A model generated the notes under the pieces. It did not search any database and was not told the origin of the DNA. It saw only the letters and a list, made by a program, of their open reading frames with translations. A stretch of DNA of 64,000 nucleotides from Saccoglossus kowalevskii (taxonomy: Eukaryota; Hemichordata; Enteropneusta; Harrimaniidae), in assembly GCF_000003605.2 (NCBI RefSeq), contig NW_003140751.1:16864-80863 (forward strand), written 5' to 3'. The translations under genes were made by a program, and so were the position numbers. Position 1 is the first letter of the stretch, and each line of letters opens with the position of its first letter. Below are positions 16,231 through 54,899 of the stretch, piece after piece.

Positions 16231-18500
16231 TAGACACATACCACAAATCAGTTCTAGGGAAAAGTTGTAAAAACTTGCATGCAATGTAGACACATACCAC
16301 AAATCAGTTCTAGGGACAAGCTACAGAAACTTGCATGCAATGTAGACACATACCACAAATCAGTTCTAGGAACAAGCTGCAGAAACTTGTATGCAATGTA
16401 GAAATACCACAAATCAGTTCTAGGGACAAGCTGCAGAAAGTTGCATGCAATGTAGACACATACCACAAATCAGTTCTAGGGACAAGCTGCAGAAACTTGT
16501 ATAGAATGTAGAAATACCACAAATCAGTTCAAGGAACAAGCTGCAGAATGTTGCATGCAATGTAGACACATACCACAAATCAGTTCTAGGGACAAGCTGC
16601 AGAAACTTACATGCAATGTAGACATAGGCAAATCAGTTCTAGGGACAAGCTGCAGAAACTTGCATGGAATGTAGACACATACCACAAGTCAGTTCTAGGG
16701 ACAAGCTACACAAACTTTATGGAATGTAGACACATACCACAAATCAGTTCTAGGGACAAGCTGCAGAGACTTGCATGGAATGTAGAAATACCACAAATCA
16801 GTTCTAGGAACAAGCTACAGAAACTTGCATGGAATGTAGACATACCACAAATCAGTTATAGGGACAAGCTGCAGAAACTTGCATGCAATGTAGACATATA
16901 CTACAAATCCGTTCTAGGGACAAGCTGCAGAAACTTGTATGGAATGTAGAAATACCACAAATCAGTTCTAGGGACAAGCTGCAGAAACTTGCATGGAATA
17001 TTGACACATCCCACAAATCAGTTCTAGGGACAAGCTGCAGAAACTTGTATGGAATGTAGAAATACTACAATTCAGGTCTAGGGACAAGCTGCAGAAACTT
17101 GCATGCAATGTAGACACATACCACAAATCAGTTCTAGAGACAAGCTGCAGAAACTTGCATGCAATGTAGACACATACCACAAATCAGTTCTAGGGACAAG
17201 CTACAGAAACTTGTATGGAATGTAGAAATACCACAAATCAGTTCTCGGCACAAGCTGCAGAAACTTGCATGCAATGTAGACACATACTACAAATCAGTTC
17301 TAGGACAAGCTGCAGAAACTTGCATGGAATTTTGTCATACCACAAATCAGTTCTAGGGACAAGCTGCAGAAACTTGTATGGAATGTAGAAATACCACAAT
17401 TCAGGTCTAGGGACAAGCTGCAGAAACTTGCATGCAATGTAGACACATACCACAAATCAGTTCTAGAGACAAGCTGCAGAAACTTGCATGCAATGTAGAC
17501 ACATACCACAAATCAGTTCTAAGGACAAGCTACAGAAACTTGTATGGAATGTAGAAATACCACAAATCAGTTCTCGGCACAAGCTGCAGAAACTTGCATG
17601 CAATGTAGACACATACTACAAATCAGTTCTAGGACAAGCTGCAGAAACTTGCATGGAATTTTGTCATACCACAAATCAGTTCTAGGGACAAGCTGCAGAA
17701 ACTTGTATGGAATGTAGAAATACCACAAATCAGTTCTAGGGACAAGCTGCAGAAACTTGCATGCAATGTAGATACATACCACAAATCAGTTCTATGGACA
17801 AGCTACACAAACTTGCATGGAATGTAGACATAGACAAATCAGTTCTAGGGACAAGCTGCAGAAACGTGCATGTAATGTAGACACACACCACAAATCAGTT
17901 CTCGGGACAAGCTACACAAACTTGCATGGAATGTAAACATAGACAAATCAGTTCTAGGGACAAGCTGCAGAAATTTGTATGGAATGTAGAAATACCACAA
18001 ATCAGTTCTAGGGACAAGCTGCAGAAAGTTGCATGCAATGTAGACACATACCACAAATCAGTTCTAGGGAAAAGTTGTAAAAACTTGCATGCAATGTAGA
18101 CACATACCACAAATCAGTTCTAGGGACAAGCTACAGAAACTTGCATGCAGTGTAGACACATACTACAAATCAGTTCTAGGAACAAGCTGCAGAAACTTGT
18201 ATGGAATGTAGAAATACCACAAATCAGTTCTCGGGACAAGCTGCAGAAAGTTGCATGCAATGTAGACACATACCACAAATCAGTTCTAGGGACAAGCTGC
18301 AGAAACTTGTATGGAATGTAGAAATACCACAAATCAGTTCAAGGAACAAGCTGCAGAATGTTGCATGCAATGTAGACACATACCACAAATCAGTTCTAGG
18401 GACAAGCTGCAGAAACTTACATGCAATGTAGACATAGGCAAATCAGTTCTAGGGACAAGCTGCAGAAACTTGTATGGAATGTAGAAATACCACAATTCAT
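16231..18500. repeat. A-type units, incl. GTTGTAAAAAC and 329-bp sets
   Basis: GGGAAAAGTTGTAAAAAC units occur near 16258 and 18065. A part six-unit block is near 16840-17150. Two tandem 329-bp sets start at 17159 and 17488. The segment 17845-18332 equals 7098-7585 at an offset of 10,747 bp. There is no gene. Confidence 0.85.
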
Positions 18501-20289
18501 GTCTAGGGACAAGCTGCAGAAACTTGCATGCAATGTAGACACATACCACAAATCAGTTCTAGAGACAAGCTGCAGAAACTTGCATGCAATGTAGACACAT
18601 ACCACAAATCAGTTCTAGGGACAAGCTACAGAAACTTGTATGGAATGTAGAAATACCACAAATCAGTTCTCGGCACAAGCTGCAGAAACTTGCATGCAAT
18701 GTAGACACATACTACAAATCAGTTCTAGGACAAGCTGCAGAAAACTTGCATGGAAATTTGTCATACCACAAATCAGTTCTAGGGACAAGCTGCAGAAACT
18801 TGTATGGAATGTAGAAATACCACAAATCAGTTTTAGGGACAAGCTGCAGAAAATTGCATGCAATGTAGATACATACCACAAATCAATTCCATGGACAAGC
18901 TACACAAACTTGCATGGAATGTAGACATAGACAAATCAGTTCTAGGGACAAGCTGCAGAAACGTGCATGTAATGTAGACACACACCACAAATCAGTTCTC
19001 GGGACAAGGTACACAAACTTGCATGGAATGTAGACATAGACAAATCAGTTCTAGGGACAAGCTGCAGAAATTTGTATGGAATGTAGAAATACCACACATC
19101 AGTTCTAGGGACAAGCTGCAGAAAGTTGCATGCAATGTAGACACATACCACAAATCAGTTCTAGGGAAAAGTTGTAAAAACTTGCATGCAATGTAGACAC
19201 ATACCACAAATCAGTTCTAGGGACAAGCTACAGAAACTTGCATGCAGTGTAGACACATACTACAAATCAGTTCTAGGAACAAGCTGCAGAAACTTGTATG
19301 GAATGTAGAAATACCACAAATCAGTTCTAGGGACAAGCTGCAGAAAGTTGCATGCAATGTAGACACATACCACAAATCAGTTTTAGGGACAAGCTGCAGA
19401 AACTTGTATGGAATGTAGAAATACCACAAATCAGTTCTAGGAACAAGCTGCAGAATGTTGCATGCAATGTAGACACATACCACAAATCAGTTCTAGGGAC
19501 AAGCTGCAGAAACTTACATGCAATGTAGACATAGGCAAATCAGTTCTAGGGACAAGCTGCAGAAACTTTATGGAATGTAGACATACCACAAGTCAGTTCT
19601 AGGGACAAGCTGCAGAAACTTGCATGCAATGTAGACACATACCACAAATCAGTTCTAGAGACAAGCTGCAGAAACTTGCATGCAATGTAGACACATACCA
19701 CAAATCAGTTCTAGGAACAAGCTACAGAAACTTGCATGGAATGTAGACATACCACAAATCAGTTCACGGGACAAGCTGCAGAAACTTGCATGCAATGTAG
19801 ACATATACTACAAATCCGTTCTAGGGACAAGCTGCAGAAACTTGCATGGAATGTAGAAATACCACAAATGAGATCTAGGGACAAGCTGCAGAAACTTGTA
19901 TGCAATGTAGACACATACTACAATTCAGTTCTAGGGACAAGCTGCAGAAACTTGTATGCAATGTAGACACATACCACAAATCAGTTCTAGAGACAAGCTG
20001 CAGAAACTTGCATGCAATGTAGACACATACCACAAATCAGTTCTAGGAACAAGCTACAGAAACTTGCATGGAATGTAGACATACCACAAATCAGTTCACG
20101 GGACAAGCTGCAGAAACTTGCATGCAATGTAGACATATACTACAAATCCGTTCTAGGGACAAGCTGCAGAAACTTGTATGGAATGTAGAAATACCACAAA
20201 TCAGTTCTAGGGACAAGCTGCAGAAACTTGCATGGAATGTAGACACATACTACAAATCAGTTCTAGGGACAAGCTGCAGAAACTTGCAT
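18501..20289. repeat. A-type units; source or copy of the 52.4-53.1 kb segment
   Basis: The piece 18942-19600 matches 52436-53094 at a constant offset of 33,494 bp, with rare shared variants such as CAAGGTACACAAAC, CCACACATCAG and GTTTTAGGGAC. Six-unit-block pieces with GTTCACGGGAC lie near 19755 and 20090, 332 bp apart. There is no gene. Confidence 0.86.
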
Positions 20290-23009: not shown

Positions 23010-23920
23010 AAATCAGTTCTAGGGACAAGCTACAGAAACTTGCATGCAATGTAGACACATACCACAAATCAGTTCTAAGGACAAGCTATAGAAACTTGCA
23101 TGCAATGTAGACATACCACAATTCAGTTCTAGAGACAAGCTACAGAAACTTGCATGCAATGTAGACACATACCACAAATCAGTTCTAGGGACAAGCTGCA
23201 GAAACTTGCATGGAATGTAGACACATACCCACAAATCAGTTCTAGAGACAAGCTGCAGAAACTTGCATGCAATGTAGACACATATCACAAATCAGTTCTA
23301 GGGACAAGCTGCAGAAACTTGCTTGCAATGTAGACACATACCACAAGTCAGTTGTAGGGACAAGCTGCAGAACCTTGCATGCAATGTAGACACATACCAC
23401 AAATCAGTTGTAGGGACAAGCTATAGGAACTTGCATGCAATGTAGAAATACCACAAATCAGTTGTAAAGACAAGCTACAGAAACTTGCATGCAATGTAGA
23501 CACATACCACAAATCAATTGTAGGGACAAGCTACAGAATCTTGCATGCAATGTAGACACATACCACAAATCAGTTGTAGGGACAAGCTGCAGAAACTTGC
23601 ATGCAATGTAGACACATACCACAAATCAGTTATAGGGACAAGTTGCAGAAACTTGCATGCAATGTAGACACATACCACTAATCAGTTCTAGGGACAAGTT
23701 ACAGAAACTTGCATGGAATGTAGACACATACCACAAATCAGTTCTAGGGACAAGCTGCAGAAACTTGCATGGAATGTAGACACATACCACAAATCAGTTC
23801 TAGAGACAAGCCTACAGAAATTTGCATGCAATGTAGACACATACCACAAATCAGTTCTAGGGACAAGCTGCAGAAACTTGCATGCAATGTAGACACATAC
23901 CACAAATCAGTTCTAGGGAC
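23010..23920. repeat. Start of the main B domain, with a TTGTAG sub-run
   Basis: Most units here are 56-mers with GCTACAG. Between about 23351 and 23640, consecutive units carry GTTGTAGGG, GTTGTAGGG, GTTGTAAAGAC, AATTGTAGGG, GTTGTAGGG and GTTATAGGG in place of GTTCTAGGG, so they lack CTAG. A CAAGCCTACAG unit with ATTTGCAT is at about 23812-23827. There is no gene. Confidence 0.86.
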
Positions 23921-25526
23921 AAGCTACATAAACTTACATACAATGTAGACACATACCACAAATCAGTTCTAGGGACAAGCTGCAGAAACTTGCATGCAAT
24001 GTAGACACATACCACAAATCAGTTCTAGGGACAAGCTACAGAAACTTGCATGCAATGTAGACATACCCCAAATCACTTCTAGGGACAAGCTACGCAAACT
24101 TGTGTGCGATGTATACATACCTCAAATCCGTTCTATGGACAAACTACCTAAACTTGCATGGAATGTATACATACCACCAATCAATTCTATGGACAGACTA
24201 CCTAAACTTGCATGCAAGGTATGCATACCCCTAATCAATTCTATGGACAAGCAACATATACTTACATATGCTGGAGACGCATACCCCTAATACATTCTAG
24301 GGACAAGCTACAGAAACTTGCATGCAATGTAGACATACCACAAATCAGTTCTAGAGACAAGCTACACAAACTTGCATGCAATGTAGACATATACCACAAA
24401 TCAGTTCTAGAGACAAGCTGCAGAAACTTGCATGCAATGTAGACACATACTACAAATCAGTTCTAGGGACAAGCTATAGAAACTTGCATGCAATGTAGAC
24501 ATAGCACAAATCAGTTCTGGAGACAAGCTACAGAAACTTGCATGCAATGTAGACACATACCACAAATCAGTTCTAGGGACAAGCTACAGAAACTTGCATG
24601 CAATGTAGACACATACCACAAATCAGTTCTAGGGACAAGCTGCAGAAACTTGCATAGAATGTAGACACATACCACAAATCAGTTCTAGGGACAAGCTGCA
24701 GAAACTTGCATGCAATGTAGACACATACCACAAATCAGTTCTAGAGACAAGCTACATAAACTTGCATGCAATGTAGACATACCACAAATCAGTTCTACGG
24801 ACAAGCTATAGAAACTTGCATGCAATGTAGACACATACCACAAATCAGTTCTAGGGTCAAGCTACGGAAACTTGCATGCAATGTAGACACATACCTCAAA
24901 TCAGTTCTAGGGACAAGCTACAGAAACGTGCATGCAATGTAGACATACCACAAATCAATTCTAGAGACAAGCTACAGAAACGTGCATGCAATGTTGACGC
25001 ATACCACAGATCAGTTCTAGGGACAAGCTGCAGAAAATTGCATGCAATGTAGACACATACCACAAATCAATTCTAGGGACAAGCTGCAGAAACTTTTATG
25101 GAATGTAGAAATACCACAAATCAGTTCTAAAGACAAGCTGCAGAAACTTGCATGCAATGTAAACACATACCACAAATCAGTTCTAGGGACAAGCTACATA
25201 AACTTACATACAATGTAGACACATACCACAAATCAGTTCTATGGACAAGCTGCAGAAACTTGCATGCAATGTAGACACATACCACAAATCAGTTCTAGGG
25301 ACAAGCTACAGAAACTTGCATGGAATGTAGACACATACCACAAATCAGTTCTAGGGACAAGCTGCAGAAACTTGCATGCAATGTAGACACATACCACAAA
25401 TCAGTTCTAGAGACAAGCTACAGAAACTTGCATGCAATGTAGACACATACCACAAATCAGTTCTAGGGACAAGCTGCAGAAACTTGCATGCAATGTAGAC
25501 ACATACCACAAATCAGTTCTAGGGAC
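23921..25526. repeat. 1,606-bp tandem duplication, first copy
   Basis: AAGCTACATA at 23921 matches 25527, the GTTCTAGAGAC unit (CTAGAG) near 24351 matches 25957, and AGTTCTACGG at 24791 matches 26397. All three are exactly 1,606 bp apart. The variants GACATAGCACAAATC, GTTCTGGAGAC and GGGTCAAGCTAC are shared. This copy contains the diverged units at 24066-24300. Confidence 0.9.
24066..24300. repeat. Diverged island 1, in register with normal units 1,606 bp downstream
   Basis: Four to five units here differ heavily from consensus: CCCCAAATCACTTCT, ACGCAAACTTGTGTGCGATG, GACAAACTACCTAAAC, GGACAGACTACC, CATATGCTGGAGACGC. They keep unit-specific marks of their counterpart at 25672-25906, namely AATCCGTTCT in the second unit, GCATGGAATG in the next, and CTATGGACAAGC before an ACTTACATA unit. 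The length is unchanged. Confidence 0.88.
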
Positions 25527-26540
25527 AAGCTACATAAACTTACATACAATGTAGACACATACCACAAATCAGTTCTAGGGACAAGCTGCAGAAACTTGCA
25601 TGCAATGTAGACACATACCACAAATCAGTTCTAGGGACAAGCTACAGAAACTTGCATGCAATGTAGACATACCACAAATCAGTTCTAGGGACAAGCTACA
25701 GAAACTTGCATGCAATGTAGACATACCACAAATCCGTTCTAGGGACAAGCTACAGAAACTTGCATGGAATGTAGACATACCACAAATCAGTTCTAGGGAC
25801 AAGCTACAGAAACTTGCATGCAATGTAGACATACCACAAATCAGTTCTATGGACAAGCTACATAAACTTACATACAATGTAGACACATACCACAAATCAG
25901 TTCTAGGGACAAGCTACAGAAACTTGCATGCAATGTAGACATACCACAAATCAGTTCTAGAGACAAGCTACACAAACTTGCATGCAATGTAGACACATAC
26001 CACAAATCAGTTCTAGGGACAAGCTGCAGAAACTTGCATGCAATGTAGACACATACTACAAATCAGTTCTAGGGACAAGCTATAGAAACTTGCATGCAAT
26101 CTAGACATAGCACAAATCAGTTCTGGAGACAAGCTACAGAAACTTGCATGCAATGTAGACACATACCACAAATCAGTTCTAGGGACAAGCTACAGAAACT
26201 TGCATGCAATGTAGACACATACCACAAATCAGTTCTAGGGACAAGCTGCAGAAACTTGCATAGAATGTAGACACATACCACAAATCAGTTCTAGGGACAA
26301 GCTGCAGAAACTTGCATGCAATGTAGACACATACCACAAATCAGTTCTAGAGACAAGCTACATAAACTTGCATGCAATGTAGACATACCACAAATCAGTT
26401 CTACGGACAAGCTATAGAAACTTGCATGCAATGTAGACACATACCACAAATCAGTTCTAGGGTCAAGCTACAGAAACTTGCATGCAATGTAGACACATAC
26501 CACAAATCAGTTCTAGGGACAAGCTACAGAAACTTGCATG
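25527..26540. repeat. 1,606-bp tandem duplication, second (partial) copy
   Basis: This matches 23921-24930. It carries ordinary, near-consensus units in the interval equivalent to the diverged island. The match ends near 26540, where a 56-mer faces a 54-mer in the first copy. There is no gene. Confidence 0.88.
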
Positions 26541-27120
26541 CAATGTAGACACATACCACAAATCAGTTCTAGGGACAAGCTACAGAAACTTGTATGGAAT
26601 GTAGAAATACCACAAATCAGTTCTAGAGACAAGCTACAGAAACTTGCGTGCGCTGTGTACACATATCACACATCTCTTCTAGAGAGACGCTACGCAAACT
26701 TGTGTGCGATGTATACACATACCACACATCACTTCTAGGGACAAGCTGCAATATATTGCATGGAATGTACACATACCACAAATCAGTTGTAGGGACAAGC
26801 TGCAGAAACTTGTATGGAATGTAGAAATACCACAAATCAGTTTTCGGGACAAGCTGCAGAAACTTGCATGCAATGTAGACCCATACCACAAATGAGTTTT
26901 AGGGCCAAGTTGCGGAAACTTGCATGGAATGAGGACATAGACAAATCAGTTCTAGGGACCAGCTGCAGAAACTTGCATGCAATGTAGACACATACCACAA
27001 ATCAGTTCTAGGGACAAGCTGCAGAAACTTGTATGGAATGTAGAAATACCACAAATCAGTTCTAGGGACAAGCTGCAGAAACTTGCATGGAATATTGACA
27101 CATCCCACAAATCAGTTCTA
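26541..27120. repeat. Diverged island 2 followed by a short A-type patch
   Basis: From about 26645 to 26780 units read TTGCGTGCGCTGTGTACAC, CACATCTCTTCT, GAGACGCTACGCAAAC, TTGTGTGCGATGTATACAC and CAATATATTGCATGG. Milder changes continue to about 26935 (GACCCATACC, GGGCCAAGTTGCGG, GAATGAGGACATAGAC). A-type units with GTATGGAATG/GAAATACC and AATATTGACACATCCC surround or follow it up to about 27120. There is no gene. Confidence 0.85.
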
Positions 27121-28569
27121 GGGACAAGCTGCAGAAACTTGCATAGAATGTAGACACATACCACAAATCAGTTCTAGGGACAAGCTACAGAAACTCGCAT
27201 GCAATGTAGACACATACCACAAATCAGTTCTAGGGACAAGCTACAGAAACTTGCATGCAATGTAGACACATACCACAAATCAGTTCTAGGGACAAGCTGC
27301 AGAAACTTGCATGCAGTGTAGACACATACCACAAATCAGTTCTAAGGACAAGCTACAGAAACTTGCGTGGAATGTAGACACATACCACAAATCAGTTCTA
27401 GGGACAAGCTGCAGAAACTTGCATGCAATGTAGACACATACCACAAATCAGTTCTAGAGACAAGCTACAAAAACTTGCATGCAATGTAGACACATACCAC
27501 TAATCAGTTCTAGGGACAAGTTGCAGAAACTTACATGCAATGTAGACACATACCACAAATCAGTTCTAGGGACAAGCTACATAAACTTACATACAATGTA
27601 GACACATACCACAAATCAGTTCTAGGGACAAGCTACAGAAACTTGCATGGAATGTAGACACATACCACAAATCAGTTCTAGGGACATGCTGCAGAAACTT
27701 GCATGCAATGTAGACACATACTACAAATCAGTTCTAGAGACAAGCTACAGAAACTTGCATGGAATGTAGAAATACCACAAATCAGTTCTAGGGACAAGCT
27801 ACAGAAACTTGCATGCAATGTAGACACATACCACAAATCAGTTCTAGGGACAAGCTACAGAAACTTGCATGGAATGTAGACACATACCACAAATCAGTTC
27901 TAGGGACAAGCTGCAGAAACTTGCATGGAATGTAGACACATACCACAAATCAGTTCTAGGGACAAGCTGCATAAACTTGCATGCAATGTAGACACATACC
28001 ACAAGTCAGTTCTAGGGACAAGCTGCAGAAACTTGCATGCAATGTAGACACATACCACAAATCAGTTCTAGGGACAAGCTACAGAACCTTCCATGCGATG
28101 TAGACACATACCACAAATCAGTTCTAGGGACAAGCTGCAGAACCTTGCATGCAATGTAGACACATACCACAAATCAGTTCTAGAGACAAGCTATAGGAAC
28201 TTGCATGCAATGTAGACATACCACAAATCAGTTCTAGAGACAAGCTACAGAAACTTGCATGCAATGTAGACATACCACAAATCAGTTCTAGGGACAAGCT
28301 ACAGAAACTTGCATGAAATGTAGACACATACCACAAATCAGTTCTAGGGACAAGCTGCAGAAACTTGCATGCAATGTAGACACATACCACAAATCAGTTC
28401 TAGGGACAAGCTACAGAAACTTGCATAGAATGTAGACACATACCACAAATCAGATCTAGGGACAAACTGCAGAAACTTGCATGCAATGTAGACACGTACC
28501 ACAAATCAGTTCTAGAGACAAGCTACAGAAACTTGCATGGAATGTACAAATACCACAAATCAGTTCTAG
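27121..28569. repeat. B-type units
   Basis: These are near-consensus 56-mers with GCTACAG or GCTGCAG and GCATGC or GCATGG. The part from about 27960 to 28210, with CTGCATAAAC, CCACAAGTCAG, CAGAACCTTCC and CTATAGGAAC, recurs at 29513-29763 (offset 1,553 bp). There is no gene. Confidence 0.85.
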
Positions 28570-29500: not shown

Positions 29501-31460
29501 AATCAGTTCTAGGGACAAGCTGCATAAACTTGCATGCAATGTAGACACATACCACAAGTCAGTTCTAGGGACAAGCTGCAGAAACTTGCATGCAATGTAG
29601 ACACATACCACAAATCAGTTCTAGGGACAAGCTACAGAACCTTCCATGCAATGTAGACACATACCACAAATCAGTTCTAGGGACAAGCTGCAGAACCTTG
29701 CATGCAATGTAGACACATACCACAAATCAGTTCTAGAGACAAGCTATAGGAACTTGCATGCAATGTAGACATACCACAAATCAGTTCTAGAGACAAGCTA
29801 CAGAAACTTGCATGGAATGTAGAAATACCACAAATCAGTTTTAGGGACAAGCTACAGAAACTTGCATGCAATGTAGACACATACCACAAATCAGTTCTAG
29901 GGACAAGCTACAGAAACTTGCATGCAATGTAGACACATACCACAAATCAGTTCTAGAGACAAGCTACAGAAACTTGCATGGAATGTAGACACATACCACA
30001 AATCAGTTCTAGGGACAAGCTACAGAAACTTGCATGGAATGTAGACACATACCACAAATCAGTTCTAGGGACAAGCTGCAGAAACTTGCATGCAATGTAG
30101 ACACATACTACAAATCAGTTCTAGGGACAAGCTATAGAAACTTGCATGCAATGTAGACATACCACAAATCAGTTCTAGGGACAAGCTACAGAAACTTGCA
30201 TGCAATGTAGACACATACCACAAATCAGTTCTAGGGACAAGCTACAGAAACTTGCATGGAATGTAGACACATACCACAAATCAGTTCTAGGGACAAGCTG
30301 CAGAAACTTGCATGCAATGTAGACACATACCACAAATCAGTTCTAGAGACAAGCTACAGAAACTTGCATGCAGTGTAGACATACCACAAATCAGTTCTAC
30401 GGACAAGCTACAGAAACTTGCATGCAATGTAGACACATACCACAAATCAGTTCTAGGGACAAGCTACAGAAACTTGCATGCAATGTAGACACATACCACA
30501 AATCAGTTCTAGGGACAAGCTGCAGAAACTTGCATGGAATGTAGAAATACCACAAATCAGTTCTAGAAACAAGCTACAGAAACTTGCATGCAATGTAGAC
30601 ACATACCACAAATCAGTTCTAGGAACAAGCTGCAGAAACTTTCATGCAATGTAGACACATACCACAAATCAGTTCTAGGGACAAGCTGCAGAAACTTGCA
30701 TGCAATGTAGAAACATACCACAAATCAGTTCTAGGGACAAGCTACAGAAACTTGCATGGAATGTAGACACATACCACAAATCAGTTCTAGGGACAAGCTG
30801 CAGAAACTTGCATGCAATGTAGACACATACCACAAATCAGTTCTAGAGACAAGCTACAGAAACTTGCATGCAATGTAGACACATACCACAAATCAGTTCT
30901 AGGGACAAGCTGCAGAAACTTGCATGAAATGTAGACACATACCACAAATCAGTTCTAGGGACAAGCTACAGAAACTTGCATGGAATGTAGACACATACCA
31001 CAAATCAGTTCTAGGGACAAGCTGCAGAAACTTGCATGCAATGTAGACACATACCACAAATCAGTTCTAGAGACAAGCTACAGAAACTTGCATGCAATGT
31101 AGAAATACAACAAATCAGTTCTGGGGACAAGCTACAAAAACTTGCATGCAATGTAGACACATACCACAAATCAGTTCTAGGGACAAGCTACAGAAACTTG
31201 CATGCAATGTAGACACATACCACAAATCAGTTCTAGAGACAAGCTACAGAAACTTGCATGGAATGTAGACACATACCACAAATCAGTTCTAGGGACAAGC
31301 TGCAGAAACTTGCATGCAATGTAGACACATACCACAAATCAGTTCTAGAGACAAGCTACAGAAACTTGCATGCAATGTAGACACATACCACAAATCAGTT
31401 CTAGAGACAAGCTACAGAAACTTGCATGGAATGTAGACACATACCACAAATCAGTTCTAG
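29501..31460. repeat. B-type units, low divergence
   Basis: These are long runs of 56-mers differing mainly at three sites: GCTACAG/GCTGCAG, GCATGC/GCATGG and GTTCTAGGG/GTTCTAGAG. The segment 29513-29889 repeats 27960-28340. A unit near 31099 has GAAATACAACAAATC with GTTCTGGGGAC and is repeated near 49160. There is no gene. Confidence 0.85.
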
Positions 31461-34829: not shown

Positions 34830-35060
34830 ATGTAGAAATACACCAAATCTCTTCTATAGACAAGCTACGCAAACTTGTGTGCGCTGTGTACACACACCCC
34901 AAATCTCTTCTCGGGACAAGCTGCACAAACTTTCGTGCGATGTGTACACATACCCCACATCTCTTCTAGGGACAAGCTGCGCAAACTTGTGTGCGATGTG
35001 TACACATACCCCAAATCAGTTCTAGGGACAAGCTACACAACCTTGTATGGAATGTGAACA
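34830..35060. repeat. Diverged island 3 with CpG-rich units
   Basis: Three to four adjacent units carry AAATCTCTTCT, GCTACGCAAACTTGTGTGCG, CTGTGTACACACACCCC, TTTCGTGCGATG, CACATCTCTTCT, GCTGCGCAAAC and GATGTGTACACATACCCC. These are the same alternative bases seen in islands 1, 2 and 4. The flanking units are ordinary B type. Confidence 0.9.
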
Positions 35061-37440
35061 TATACCACAAATCAGTTCTATGGACAAGCTACAGAAACTT
35101 GCATGCAATGTAGACACATACCACAAATCAATTCTCGGGACAAGCTACAGAAACTAGCATGGAATGTAGACACATACCACAAATCAATTCTAGGGACAAG
35201 CTACAGAAACTAGCATGGAATGTAGACACATACCACAAATCAGTTCTAGGGACAAGCTACAGAAACTTGCATGCAATGTAGACACATACCACAAATCAGT
35301 TCTAGAGACAAGCTACAGAAACTAGCATGGAATGTAGACACATACCACAAATCAGTTCTAGGGACAAGCTACATCAACTTACATACAATGTAGACACATA
35401 CCACAAATCAATTCTAGGGACAAGCTGCAGAAACGTTTAAGGAATGCAGAAATACCACAAATCAGTTCTAGGGACAAGCTACAGAAACTTGCATGCAATG
35501 TAGACACATACCACAAATCAATTCTAGGGACAAGCTACAGAAACTTGCATGCAATGTAGACACATACCACAAATCAGTTCTAGGGACAAGCTGCAGAAAC
35601 TTGCATGCAATGTAGACACATACCACAAATCAGTTCTAGGGACAAGCTGCAGAAACTTGCATGCAATGTAGACACATACCACTAATCAGTTCTAGGGACA
35701 AGCTACAGAAACTTGCATGGAATGTAGACACATACCACAAATCAGTTCTACGGACAAGCTACAGAAATTTGCATGCAATGTATACACATACCACAAATCA
35801 GTTCTAGGGACAAGCTGCAGAAACTTGCATGCAATGTAGACACATACCACAAATCAGTTCTAGGGACAAGCTACATAAACTTACATACAATGTAGACACA
35901 TACCACGAATCAGTTCTATGGACAAGCTGCAGAAACTTGCATGCAATGTAGACACATACCACAAATCAGTTCTAGGGACAAGCTACAGAAACTGGCATGC
36001 AATGTAGACACATACCACAAATCAGTTCGAGGGACAAGCTGCAGAAACTTGCATGCAATGTAGACACATACCACAAATCAGTTCTAGGGACAAGCTACAT
36101 CAACTTACATACAATGTAGACACATACCACAAATCAGTTCTAGGGACAAGCTACAGAAACTTGCATGGAATGTACACACATACCACAAATCAGTTCTAGG
36201 GACAAGCTGCAGAAACTTGCATGCAATGTAGACACATACCACAAATCAGTTCTAGAGACAAGCTACAGAAACTAGCATGGAATGTAGACACATACCACAA
36301 ATCAGTTCTAGGGACAAGCTACATCAACTTGCATGGAATGTAGACACATACCACAAATCAGTTCTAGGGACAAGCCGCAGAAACTTGCATGCAATGTAGA
36401 CACATACCACAAATCAGTTCTAGAGACAAGCTACAGAAACTTGCATGCAATGTAGACATACCACAAATCAGTTCTACGGACAAGCTACAGAAACTTGCAT
36501 GCAATGTAGACACATACCACAAATCAGTTCTAGGGACAAGCTACAGAAACTGGCATGCAATGTAGACACATACCACAAATCAGTTCTAGGGACAAGCTAC
36601 AGTAACTTGCATGCAATGTAGACACATACCACAAATCAGTTCTAGGGACAAGCTGCAGAAACTTGCATGCAATGTAGACACATACCACAAATCAATTCTA
36701 GGGACAAGCCTACAGAAACTTGTATGGAATGTAGAAATACCACAAATCAGTTCTAGAGACAAGCTACAGAAACTTGCATGCAATGTAAAAACATACCACA
36801 AATCAGTTCAAGGACAAGCTGCAGAAACTTTCATGCAATGTAGACACATACCACAAATCAGTTCTAGGGACAAGCTGCAGAAACTTGCATGCAATGTAGA
36901 CACATACCACAAATCAGTTCTAGGGACAAGCTGCAGAAACTTGCATGCAATGTAGACACATACCACTAATCAGTTCTAGGGACAAGCTACAGAAACTTGC
37001 ATGGAATGTAGACACATACCACAAATCAGTTCTAGAGACAAGCTGCAGAAACTTGCATGGAATGTAGACACATACCACAAATCAGTTCTAGAGACAAGCC
37101 TACAGAAATTTGCATGCAATGTAGGCACATACCACAAATCAGTTCTAGGGACAAGCTGCAGAAACTTGCATGCAATGTAGACACATACCACAAATCAGTT
37201 CTAGGGACAAGCTACATAAACTTACATACAATGTAGACACATACCACGAATCAGTTCTATGGACAAGCTGCAGAAACTTGCATGCAATGTGGACACATGC
37301 CACAAATCAGTTCTAGAGACAAGCTACAGAAACTTGCATGGAATGTAGAAATACCACAAATCAGTTCTAGGGACAAGCTACAGAAACTTGCATGCAATGT
37401 AGACACATACCACAAATCAGTTCTAGGGACAAGCTACAGA
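35061..37440. repeat. B-type units, related to 31.9-34.8 kb
   Basis: ACATCAACTTACATAC followed by AAACGTTTAAGGAATGCAG (35431) parallels 32643 (offset 2,788 bp). The TTTGCATGCAATGTATACAC unit near 35766 parallels the one near 32978. CAAGCCTACAG units occur near 36707 and 37097. There is no gene. Confidence 0.85.
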
Positions 37441-41459: not shown

Positions 41460-42040
41460 AACTTGCATGCTATGTACACATACCACACATCTCCTCTTGG
41501 GACAATCTACAAAAACTTGTGTGCGGTGTACACATACCACAAATCAGTTCTAGGGACAAGCTGCAGAAACTTGCATGCAATGTAGACACATACCACAAAT
41601 CAATTCTAGGGACAAGCTACAGAAACTTGAAGGGAAAGTTGAAATACCACAAATCTCTTCTCTGGACAAGCCTTTTAAAATTTGCATGCTGGGAAAGCCC
41701 TTACCTTAAATCACTTCTTCGGATTGCCTGACAAACCTTTTTCGCCATGTGGAGTAATACTACAAATCCCCTCTCCGATCGCCCTTCCCAAACTTGCATG
41801 CAATGGAACACATAATGGAACCCGATTCTATATTTTCTCCTTACAAACTTGTGCGGTATTTCAACTCATACAAGGAGTCCTCTCTAGGGACTCTGTTCAG
41901 AAGCTTGATAGTTAAGCAAACCCCTACCCCAAATCACTTCCAGGGACGCGCTACAAAAACTTTTGTGCGCTGTAGACATCCACTAACAAACAATTCGAGG
42001 GACTCTCTAGGAACTCTTGGAGGCAAAGGATATCACTACC
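41460..42040. repeat. Most diverged stretch: relic monomers (island 4)
   Basis: 41460-41530 has CTATGTACACATACC, CACATCTCCTCTTGGG and TTGTGTGCGGTGTACAC. After one normal unit and a half, 41630-42040 holds about seven units of about 53-58 bp that are barely recognisable. They keep AAATCTCTTCTCTGGAC, TTTGCATGCTGG, AAACTTGCATGCAATGG, AAACTTGTGCGG, CTCTAGGGACTC, AAATCACTTCCAGGGACG and TTTTGTGCGCTGTAGAC at the expected spacing. Other parts are AT- or C-rich and unlike any unit. The open frames across it keep no known motif. No inserted element, target duplication or gene is seen. Confidence 0.88.
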
Positions 42041-42899
42041 ACAAATCAGTTCTAGGGACAAGCTACAGAAACTTGCATGGAATGTATACACATACCACAA
42101 ATCAGTTCTAGGGACATGCTGCAGAAACTTGCATGCAATGTAGACACATACCACAAATCAGTTCTAGAGACAAGCTACAGAAACGTGCATGAAATGTAGA
42201 AATACCACAAATCAGTTCTAGGGACAAGCTACAGAAACTTGCATGCAATGTAGACACATACCACAAATCAGTTCTAGGGACAAGCTACAGAAACTTGCAT
42301 GCAATGTAGACACATACCACAAATCAGTTCTAAGGACAAGCTATAGAAACTTGCATGCAATGTAGACATACCACAATTCAGTTCTAGAGACAAGCTACAG
42401 AAACTTGCATGCAATGTAGACACATACCACAAATCAGTTCTAGGGACAAGCTACAGAAACTTGCATGGAATGTAGACACATACCACAAATCAGTTCTAGG
42501 GACAAGCTGCAGAAACTTGCATGCAATTTAGACACATACCACAAATCAGTTCTAGAGACAAGCTACAGAAACTTGCATGCAATGTAGACATACCACAAAT
42601 CAGTTCTACGGACAAGCTACAGAAACTTGCATGCAATGTAGACACATACCACAAATCAGTTCTAGGGACAAGCTACAGTAACTTGCATGCAATGTAGACA
42701 CATACCACAAATCAGTTCTAGGGACAAGCTACAGAAACTTGCATGGAATGTAGACACATACCACAAATCAGTTCTAGGGACAAGCTGCAGAAACTTGCAT
42801 GCAATGTAGACACATACCACAAATCAGTTCTAGAGACAAGCTACAGAAACTTGCATGCAATGTAGACATACCACAAATCAGTTCTACGGACAAGCTACA
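42041..42899. repeat. B-type units, copied near 61.1-61.7 kb
   Basis: From about 42330 onward the order CCACAATTCAG, GCAATTTAGACAC, GTTCTACGGAC, GCTACAGTAAC recurs 18,791-18,792 bp downstream, and the match continues to about 43610. There is no gene. Confidence 0.86.
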
Positions 42900-45050: not shown

Positions 45051-45469
45051 AATCAGTTCTAGGGAAAAGTTGTAAAAACTTGCATGCAATGTAGACACAT
45101 ACCACAAATCAGTTCTAGGGACAAGCTACAGAAACTTGCATGCAGTGTAGACACATACTACAAATCAGTTCTAGGAACAAGCTGCAGAAACTTGTATGGA
45201 ATGTAGAAATACCACAAATCAGTTCTAGGGACAAGCTGCAGAAAGTTGCATGCAATGTAGACACATACCACAAATCAGTTCTAGGGACAAGCTGCAGAAA
45301 CTTGTATGGAATGTAGAAATACCACAAATCAGTTCAAGGAACAAGCTGCAGAATGTTGCATGCAATGTAGACACATACCACAAATCAGTTCTAGGGACAA
45401 GCTGCAGAAACTTACATGCAATGTAGACATAGGCAAATCAGTTCTAGGGACAAGCTGCAGAAACTTGCA
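45051..45469. repeat. Short A-type patch inside the B domain
   Basis: GGGAAAAGTTGTAAAAAC (45063), GTATGGAATG/GAAATACC 54-mers, CAGAATGTTGC and a GACATAGGC 53-mer appear abruptly. They match 7321-7700 and 18065-18450 in order. The patch ends at a diverged island. Confidence 0.87.
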
Positions 45470-45590
45470 TGAAAGGTAAACTAATACCACAAGTCTCTTC
45501 TAGCGACCTGCTACACCAAGTTTGTGGAGTGTACACACATACCACATCTCTTCTCTAGGGACAATCTGCAAACACTTGCGTGGAGTGTAC
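45470..45590. repeat. Diverged island 5 at an A/B border
   Basis: The units read GCATGAAAGGTAAACTAATACC, AAGTCTCTTCTAGCGACC, CACCAAGTTTGTGGAGTG, TACACACATACCACATCTC and CACTTGCGTGGAGTGTAC. It lies exactly where the A patch ends and the B type resumes. Confidence 0.87.
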
Positions 45591-46849
45591 AAATACCACA
45601 AATCAGTTCTAGGGACAAGCTGCAGAAACTTGCATGCAATGTAGACACATACCACAAAGTCAGTTCTAGGGACAAGCTACAGAAACTTGCATGGAATGTA
45701 GACACATACCACAAATCAGTTCTAGGGACAAACTGCAGAAACTTGCATGCAATGTAGACACGTACCACAAATCAGTTCTAGATACAAGCTACAGAAACTT
45801 GCATGGAATGTACAAATACCACAAATCAGTTCTAGGGACAAGCTACAGAAACTTGCATGCAATGTAGACACATACCACAAATCAGTTCTAGGGACAAGCT
45901 ACAGAAACTTGCATGCAATGTAGACACATACCACAAATCAGTTCTAGAGACAAGCTACAGAAACTTGCATGGAATGTAGACACATACCACAAATCAGTTC
46001 TAGGGACAAGCTGCAGAAACTTGCATGCAATGTAGACACATACCACAAATCATTTCTAGGGACAAGCTACAGAAACTTGCATGCAATGTAGACATACCAC
46101 AAATCAGTTCTAGGGACAAGCTACAGAAACTTGCATGGAATGTAGACACATACCACAAATCAGTTCTAGAGACAAGCTGCAGAAACTTGCATGCAATGTA
46201 GACACATACCACAAATCAGTTCTAGGGACAAGCTACAGAAACTTGCATGGAATGTAGACACATACCACAAATCAGTTCTAGGGACATGCTGCAGAAACTT
46301 GCATGGGATGTAGACACATACCACAAATCAGTTCTAGAGACAAGCTACAGAAACTTGCATGGAATGTAGAAATACCACAAATCAGTTTTAGGGACAAGCT
46401 ACAGAAACTTGCATGCAATGTAGACACATACCACAAATCAGTTCTAGGGACAAGCTACAGAAACTTGCATGCAATGTAGACACATACCACAAATCAGTTC
46501 TAGGGACAAGCTACAGAAACTTGCATGGAATGTAGACACATACCACAAATCAGTTCTAGAGACAAGCTACAGAAACTTGCATGGAATGTAGACACATACC
46601 ACAAATCAGTTCTAGGGACAAGCTGCAGAAACTTGCATGCAATGTAGACACATACTACAAATCAGTTCTAGGGACAAGCTATAGAAACTTGCATGCAATG
46701 TAGACATACCACAAATCAGTTCTAGGGACAAGCTACAGAAACTTGCATGCAATGTAGACACATACCACAAATCAGTTCTAGGGACAAGCTACAGAAACTT
46801 GCATGCAATGTAGACACATACCACAAATCAGTTCTAGGGACAAGCTACA
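45591..46849. repeat. B-type units
   Basis: These are near-consensus 56-mers with a few 54-mers. One-base or two-base changes include CCACAAAGTCAG near 45655 and GTTCTAGATAC near 45775. There is no gene. Confidence 0.85.
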
Positions 46850-53340: not shown

Positions 53341-54899
53341 ATGTAGACACATACCACAAATCAGTTCTAGAGACAAGCTACAGAAACTTGCATGCAATGT
53401 AGACATACCACAAATCAGTTCTACGGACAAGCTACAGAAACTTGCATGCATTGTAGACACATACCACAAATCAGTTCTAGGGACAAGCTACAGAAACGTG
53501 CATGGAATGTAGACACATACCACAAATCAGTTCTAGGGACAAGCTGCAGAAACTTGCATGCAATGTAGACACATACCACAAATCAGTTCTAGAGACAAGC
53601 TACAGAAACTTGCATACAATGTAGACACATACCACAAATCATATCTAGGGACAAACTGCAAAAACTTGCGTGCTGTGTACACACCTACCACCAATCCTTT
53701 CTACAGACTAGCTACACAAGCTTGCATGGAATGTACAAATACCACAAATCATCTCTAGGGACAAGCTACAGAAACTTGCGTGCAATGTAGACATAGACAA
53801 ACCAGTTCTAGGGACAAGCTGCTGAAACTTGCATGGAATGTAGACACACAACACAAATCAGTTCTAGGGACAAGCTACAGAAACTTGCATGGAATGTAGA
53901 CACATACCACAAATCAGTTCTAGGGACAAGCTACAGAAACTTGCATGGAATGTAGACATACCACAAATCAGTTCTCGAGACAAGCTGCAGAAACTTGCAG
54001 GGAATGTAGACACATACCACAAATCAGTTCTAGGGACAAGCTGCAGAAACTTGCATGCAATGTAGACACATACCACAAATCAGTTCTAGAGACAAGCTAT
54101 AGAAACTTGCATGCAATGTAGACATACCACAAATCAGTTCTAGGGACAAGCTACAGAAACTTGCATGCAATGTAGACACATACCACAAATCAGTTCTAGG
54201 GACAAGCTACAGAAACTTGCATGGAATGTAGACACATACCACAAATCAGTTCTAGGGACAAGCTGCAGAAACTTGCATGGAATGTAGACACATACCACAA
54301 ATCAGTTCTAGGGACAAGCTGCAGAAACTTGCATGCAATGTAGACACATACCACAAATCAGTTCTAGAAACAAGCTACAGAAACTTGCATGCAATGTAGA
54401 CACATACCACAAATCAATTCTAGGGACAAGCTACAGAAACTTGTATGGAATGTAGAAATACCACAAATCAGTTCTAGAAACAAGCTACAGAAACTTGCAT
54501 GCAATGTAGACACATACCACAAATCAGTTCTAGGAACAAGCTGCAGAAACTTTCATGCAATGTAGACACATACCACAAATCAGTTCTAGGGACAAGCTGC
54601 AGAAACTTGCATGGAATGTAGACACATACCACAAATCAGTTCTAGAGACAAGCTACAGAAACTTGCATGGAATGTAGACACATACCACAAATCAGTTCTA
54701 GGGACAAGCTACAGAAACTTGCATGGAATGTAGACACATACCACAAATCAGTTCTAGGGACAAGCTGCAGAAACTTGCATGCAATGTAGACACATACTAC
54801 AAATCAGTTCTAGGGACAAGCTATAGAAACTTGCATGCAATGTAGACATACCACAAATCAGTTCTAGGGACAAGCTGCAGAAACTTGCATGCAATGTAG
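53341..54899. repeat. B-type patch with diverged island 7 at its left part
   Basis: After about 300 bp of ordinary B units, 53640-53770 has AATCATATCTAGGG, TTGCGTGCTGTGTACACACC, CCACCAATCCTTTCTACAGAC and AAATCATCTCTAGGG. Immediately after, GACATAGACAAACCAG starts a further copy of the cassette seen at 3590-3890 (offset 50,194 bp). GTTCTAGGTAC near 54915 marks the switch back to A type. There is no gene. Confidence 0.86.

Follow-up and report, generated by a model that had tools for sequence, protein, structure and literature searches.

A 227-bp patch in one copy of a duplicated satellite block differs from its in-register counterpart at roughly one position in six (17%). Other copies of the segment suggest that this patch was altered in place rather than surviving as an older version of the array. 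The window, the whole 64,000-bp stretch of Saccoglossus kowalevskii DNA analysed here, corresponds to positions 16864-80863 of the 80,863-bp contig C3159 in an assembly of 572 Mb and 4,830 contigs. A mitochondrial COX1 on contig C4830, in which TGA is read as Trp, points to an animal. C3159 has no non-satellite flanks and is a block-structured (higher-order) satellite array, with head-to-tail units of one length class (1,031 of its 1,460 units are 56 bp long, 319 are 54 bp, 79 are 53 bp and 31 have other lengths) and repeated multi-unit blocks of high identity. Using 150-bp windows at ≥97% identity, we found that the contig contains 266 ungapped diagonals, each 420 bp or longer, with a maximum of 1,315 bp.

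To place the satellite in the genome, we searched the whole assembly with a 28-base unit pattern, which gave 1,324 forward and 843 reverse matches (2,167 in total). The counts on C3159 (1,324), C2104 (387), C3567 (434) and C940 (22) therefore place all matches on these four contigs, at a limit of ≤2 mismatches that leaves room for more diverged units elsewhere. The array on C940 is short and bordered by non-satellite sequence on one side and by a run of N on the other, and for this reason we treat it as a separate locus. The array (reverse strand, ~17100-18553) is of the same satellite and has variants of its own, a AATTGTAG insertion and GCTGCTG. One exact unit pattern had no match in viral contigs, and the unit word was not found in the open-access papers searched.

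Within the window, two copies of a 1,134-bp block, L and R, lie at a lag of 1,606 bp; the 472 bases between them (24946-25417) are unshared, and the alignment breaks on both sides of the block. The features of the array and of this block pair are as follows.

1-64000, forward strand: satellite array of ~56-bp units from end to end of the window (Tandem Repeats Finder: period 56, 1,155.7 copies)
23812-24067, forward strand: left flank of copy L (block 23812-24945); 1 difference from 25418-25673 and 2 from the reverse complement of C2104 15022-15277
24068-24294, forward strand: diverged island of copy L; 39 substitutions and 0 indels against 25674-25900, this in-register copy being its best match on C3159 and C2104
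24295-24945, forward strand: right flank of copy L; 6 differences from 25901-26551
25418-26551, forward strand: block copy R, in the ordinary state throughout in the alignment at lag 1,606
25674-25900, forward strand: in-register ordinary counterpart of the island; identical to C2104 at all 39 island-different sites, with 5 differences from C2104 in all

L and R differ at 39 of 227 bp inside the island and at 7 of 907 bp outside it (Fisher p = 5e-22), and across the 1,134 bp every difference is a substitution, with no indels. The island has the sharp ends and kept length of a gene conversion tract: its first difference is at 24068 and its last at 24294, and the adjoining 200 bp on the two sides have 0 and 2 differences. 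It touches five units (54, 54, 54, 54 and 56 bp), and copy L keeps its local marks and unit lengths through it. The initial annotation, made from the sequence alone, had reported that the lag stays at exactly 1,606 bp on both sides of the island and through it, with the left copy strongly diverged and the right near consensus, all of which was borne out. The figure of 1,606 bp, however, is the lag and not, as proposed, the length of the copies, and the proposed island bounds of 24066-24300 are corrected to those given above. The unit-specific marks said to be shared are present in both copies (AATCCGTTCT at 24125 and 25731, GCATGG, and the ACATA.ACTTACATA unit) but are not private to them: AATCCGTTCT occurs 13 times on C3159 and 4 times on C2104, GCATGG 278 and 75 times, and ACATAAACTTACATACAATG 18 and 6 times.

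To determine which copy had changed, we used a third copy of the left flank and island segment, found on the reverse strand of C2104 from 15022 to about 15540. This copy has the base of R at 39/39 island-different sites and that of L at 0/39. The initial annotation had preferred an older state on the left and a right copy overwritten toward consensus, which the third copy does not support; its other suggestion, that the left copy was hit by a local cluster of mutations, fits better, although a plain random cluster does not suffice, as the recurrence described below indicates. Compared with 14 other, partly similar segments, R or C2104 departs from the majority at 16 sites, and L has the base of R at every one of them; the island is therefore part of this same segment, in place. 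The third copy differs from L and R alike at five sites (24129, 24244, 24245, 24257 and 24264). Opposite 24244-24264, four sites within 21 bases of C2104 differ from both L and R in a version that resembles the unit type at 24352, likely a short conversion patch.

The island is one of six that lie within about 30 kb, the 24-54 kb part of the window. The other five are the following.

26623-26734, forward strand: second island, two units; its 28-mer at 26690 recurs exactly at 24090-24117, in the first whole unit of island 24068
34844-35077, forward strand: third island (34854), four units; 39194 and -14026 (window numbering continued leftward) are the in-register partners of 34844-35060
41496-42051, forward strand: most diverged stretch, with small indels, from unit comparison on C3159 and a whole-assembly search
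45444-45608, forward strand: fourth island, with an in-register ordinary block at 16639
53645-53770, forward strand: fifth island, with an in-register ordinary block at 28456

Several units of 41496-42051 have 12 to 28 differences from consensus, far beyond the other islands, and its 41650-41960 portion had no other match at E <= 0.001 in the 572-Mb assembly; being without an in-register ordinary block, this stretch was omitted from the mark and spectrum counts. We did not class as islands the single units at -7543 and 56253, the latter a repeated type, that have 8 differences. No islands of this kind were seen on C2104 or C3567, leaving aside two units on the reverse strand of C3567 (1839-2000) with 15 differences each, which look like an out-of-phase join rather than such an island.

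For islands 24068, 45444 and 53645, the block predicted from the flanks is the best match on C3159 and C2104; for 34854 it is best after a shifted self-match, and for 26623 and the most diverged island it is not the best match. At marks, the columns that vary between ordinary units, five islands equal the predicted block in 116/135 cells (null 86.6, sd 4.9; reached in 0/20,000 shuffles). Taken singly, the ordinary-unit runs that agree as well number 58/1,822 for 24068, 7/1,822 for 34854, 2/1,842 for 53645, 1/1,832 for 45444 and 35/1,842 for 26623. By eye, 8 of the 19 mark disagreements reflect gap placement and 5 fall at column 24, leaving 6, and the second unit of island 26623 loses marks. 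This agreement with the predicted blocks therefore indicates that the islands are altered versions of ordinary local blocks, and on sequence comparison five of them are in-place variants of such blocks.

At 11 columns picked because they changed in islands, the ordinary base stands in 284/295 cells on C940 (3.7% non-ordinary, 7 of the 11 exceptions at column 15), in 4,955/5,058 on C3567 (2.0%) and in 4,482/4,588 on C2104 (2.3%); the non-ordinary share is 2.2% in the rest of C3159 and 51% (84/165) in the five islands. We also collected 117 distinct copies matching one or both flanks of any of the six islands, finding the island state in none of them; the 41 that run in register through the island, and are thus informative, divide as 2 for 24068, 22 for 26623, 9 for 34854, 0 for 41496, 1 for 45444 and 7 for 53645. 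Conversion of the right copy toward consensus would lead one to expect the island state in other copies of the block, but for island 24068 it is present in 0/15 flank-sharing copies (2/15 in register through it). Island alleles likewise do not spread among neighbouring units beyond the edge unit, as a sweep in progress might have left them: they number 0.69 per unit within 120 bp, 0.25 at 120-400 bp and 0.21-0.29 farther away, and the value within 1 kb, 0.288, compares with 0.258 by shift (reached by 863/5,000).

We then looked for a source of the changed sequence. A genome search for island 24068 found nothing closer than the right copy, and no donor-identical tract for the left copy was found, the best other match on C3159 and C2104 having 44 mismatches over 239 bases (the island with 6-bp margins) and the best on C3567 54 over 227. 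As a direct donor, the ordinary array accounts for 0/39 changes at word length 9 (null 5.5) and 6 at word length 8 (null 7.7), and it was rejected for this island; in island 34854 (word lengths 9 and 10) and island 26623 (word length 8) it exceeds the 95% limit. Dense substitution clusters would be expected of template-switch mutation through a local inverted repeat, but local reverse-complement templates explain 0/39 changes of island 24068 at word lengths 8, 9, 10 and 12, so this candidate was also rejected. For island 45444 such templates account for 4/26 changes at word lengths 8 and 9 (null 0.6 and 0.2) and none at 10 and 12.

A self-survey of C3159 for substitution-type clusters, with spans up to 350 bp and clean 200-bp flanks on both sides, found 10, of which island 24068 has 39 changes and the other nine have 5-7. 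These nine, three of which concern one place (31055-31137), are in-register patches of 34-83 bp, each with at least one version elsewhere on C3159 or C2104 within 1 mismatch. At island 24068, the left version has nothing closer than 44 mismatches and the right version has one copy at 5.

The changes are biased to the bases of one strand, as in a strand-coordinated cluster. Plus-strand purines are the origin of 104/120 changes in four islands and of 121/139 in five; with the four islands pooled, purine columns change in 25% of cells and pyrimidine columns in 5% (p = 0.0009, treating columns as independent). Most often hit is G in the contexts AGA (24/27 changed) and AGT (11/14), again in four islands. 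In island 24068 alone, changes affect 19/95 A, 14/39 G, 3/55 C and 3/51 T. The columns prone to change in islands show no correspondence with those variable in ordinary units (rho -0.07).

The changes also recur. In island 24068, 16 unit pairs have the same change at the same column, against 4.5 (sd 1.9) expected and in 0/20,000 shuffles, so that its units do not behave as independent targets of a random local cluster under a shuffle null that has no context hot spots in its model. Changes at the same column agree in 59/78 pairs within an island (shuffled 44.4, sd 3.1) and in 150/316 between islands (shuffled 109.4, sd 8.1), and islands 34854 and 26623 agree in 40/42. This agreement looks like a common source, not independent errors. 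That bases of the island recur in other islands, as initially noted, holds, though unevenly, for changes lying in 12-mers with at least two changes that are common with other islands: these make up 8/39 changes in 24068 (null mean 0.8), 27/38 in 34854, 5/15 in 53645, 5/26 in 45444 and 15/21 in 26623. A frequency-weighted match of island 24068 to the other islands gives 78 against 41 by chance (reached by 28/20,000 shuffles), but plain present/absent matches are weak, at 22 against 16.8 (1,032/20,000), or 31 against 26.5 with the most diverged island included (1,316/20,000). Recurrent and common changes together imply that part of the changed sequence has a common source, through copying between islands or from an unassembled source, or else that strong hot spots are common to the islands. 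Real as this recurrence is, the age that it had been taken to signal does not follow: across the 572-Mb assembly, a 24-mer of one type of island is confined to three C3159 islands (6 matches at <=2 mismatches), which points to a source or hot spots that the islands have in common, not to a state preserved elsewhere.

We tentatively favour, at somewhat less than even confidence, an alteration of the left copy in place after the duplication, by highly error-prone repair synthesis over a few hundred bases together with the copying of short patches from island to island. Once the block had been duplicated, a break or gap in its left copy would have been filled by error-prone synthesis across a few hundred bases, leaving a substitution-only tract biased to one strand; the same may have happened elsewhere between 24 and 54 kb of the window, and the array's ordinary short-tract conversion would then have carried small pieces of changed sequence from one island to another. 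The place and register of the changes, the strand bias, and the match of R to the third copy and to the separate loci are observed directly, whereas the enzyme and the event are inferred. To our knowledge, such a dense purine-biased tract fits no known polymerase or deaminase signature. A broader reading, which we regard as possible but less probable, is that discrete length-preserving tracts hit satellite arrays, very dense, biased to purines of one strand and dependent on context (G in AG[A/T] nearly always), and act as a source of new variants that are spread by short conversion. Sharp edges and the lack of indels would also be expected if the left copy had received its island by in-register gene conversion from an unassembled, diverged sister array with the same block layout and marks, and both the multi-change 12-mers common between islands (most of all in 34854 and 26623) and the position of island 24068 as the odd one out among the copies agree with such an import. 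No donor stands among the best candidates scored in the 572 Mb, however, and a donor that kept layout and marks and yet differed by 17% is hard to imagine, with 6 mark disagreements remaining after the gap and column-24 cases; we consider the import unlikely.

That the islands are relics of an older array state, left when the right copy and others were overwritten to a new consensus or when the left flanks were overwritten around the island, we hold to be rather unlikely. The bases that recur in several islands, the graded divergence among islands with indels in the worst, the placement of all six within about 30 kb, and the occurrence, by eye, of CpG in islands where ordinary units have CA, which is the direction of CpG decay, are points in its favour. 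Against it, the C2104 copy and the C940 locus are in the ordinary state, the neighbourhood has no leftover island alleles, and no flank-sharing copy has the island (0/117), though for 82.6% of the 734 220-bp windows compared, C3159 or C2104 has a further copy that differs by at most 2.7%. R, moreover, retains marks so close to the sites in question, a few bases away, that ordinary tracts would be too coarse to have overwritten the one and spared the other. Most errors in long reads are indels, and the lack of indels over hundreds of bases argues against an artefact of consensus or assembly, in which context-dependent miscalls at poor read support would have been kept because the reads could not be placed in the array. 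Changes that are in place, strand-biased, context-dependent and unique fit this explanation, as does their restriction to one 30-kb part of one contig; clustering of this kind suits a relic zone as well as an artefact. Beyond the islands, rare variants are also commoner in the 24-54 kb zone (17/503 units against 13/920 elsewhere), which favours an artefact or a faster-changing zone a little, but outside the islands the zone is otherwise alike in unique 31-mers (6.2% against 7.1%) and odd-length units (10/503 against 17/920). We consider an artefact quite doubtful.

Homogenisation of satellite arrays by gene conversion is discussed in PMC2834710, and the array resembles the higher-order arrays treated there in its head-to-tail units, shuffled near-identical blocks and short in-register patches with a version elsewhere, whereas the island makes one copy less array-like, not more. 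Break-induced replication, for which PMC11034957 cites an error rate in yeast of up to 1,000-fold over normal synthesis, is likewise proposed there as a source of change in satellite arrays and combines this with a high substitution rate; the cited rate is nevertheless far below 17% in one tract, and this counts against the error-prone synthesis that we favour. Conversion and block duplication in satellites are well known, but a dense, register-keeping, strand-biased tract that makes one copy an outlier is unusual, and the titles and abstracts found in searches of an open-access library gave no account of in-register dense substitution tracts in satellites. The usual signature of kataegis is C-based. 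The islands are like kataegis, the clustered strand-coordinated mutation of PMC8850194, in being substitution clusters with a strand bias, and differ in changing both A and G, to all other bases, and in being far denser. If the bases are real, the array records a one-stroke event that made new satellite variants in exact register within ~99%-identical blocks, and it offers a testable answer to how diverged units arise inside homogenised arrays. If they are a consensus artefact, they are a warning that divergent islands of this sort in an assembled satellite can be misread as relics.

Three further observations concern composition and structure. Over 24001-50000, the zone in which most islands lie, GC skew drops near 24 kb to about -0.1 and column 13 is A in more units. 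In folding stability, islands 34854 and 45444 form more stable secondary structure than random mutants (reached by 8 and 15 of 300, respectively) and islands 24068 and 53645 do not (85 and 198 of 300), a mixed result. At 24218-24229, TGTAGACATACC becomes the perfect palindrome GGTATGCATACC in island 24068, and in island 34854 ATGTAGACACAT becomes ATGTGTACACAT.
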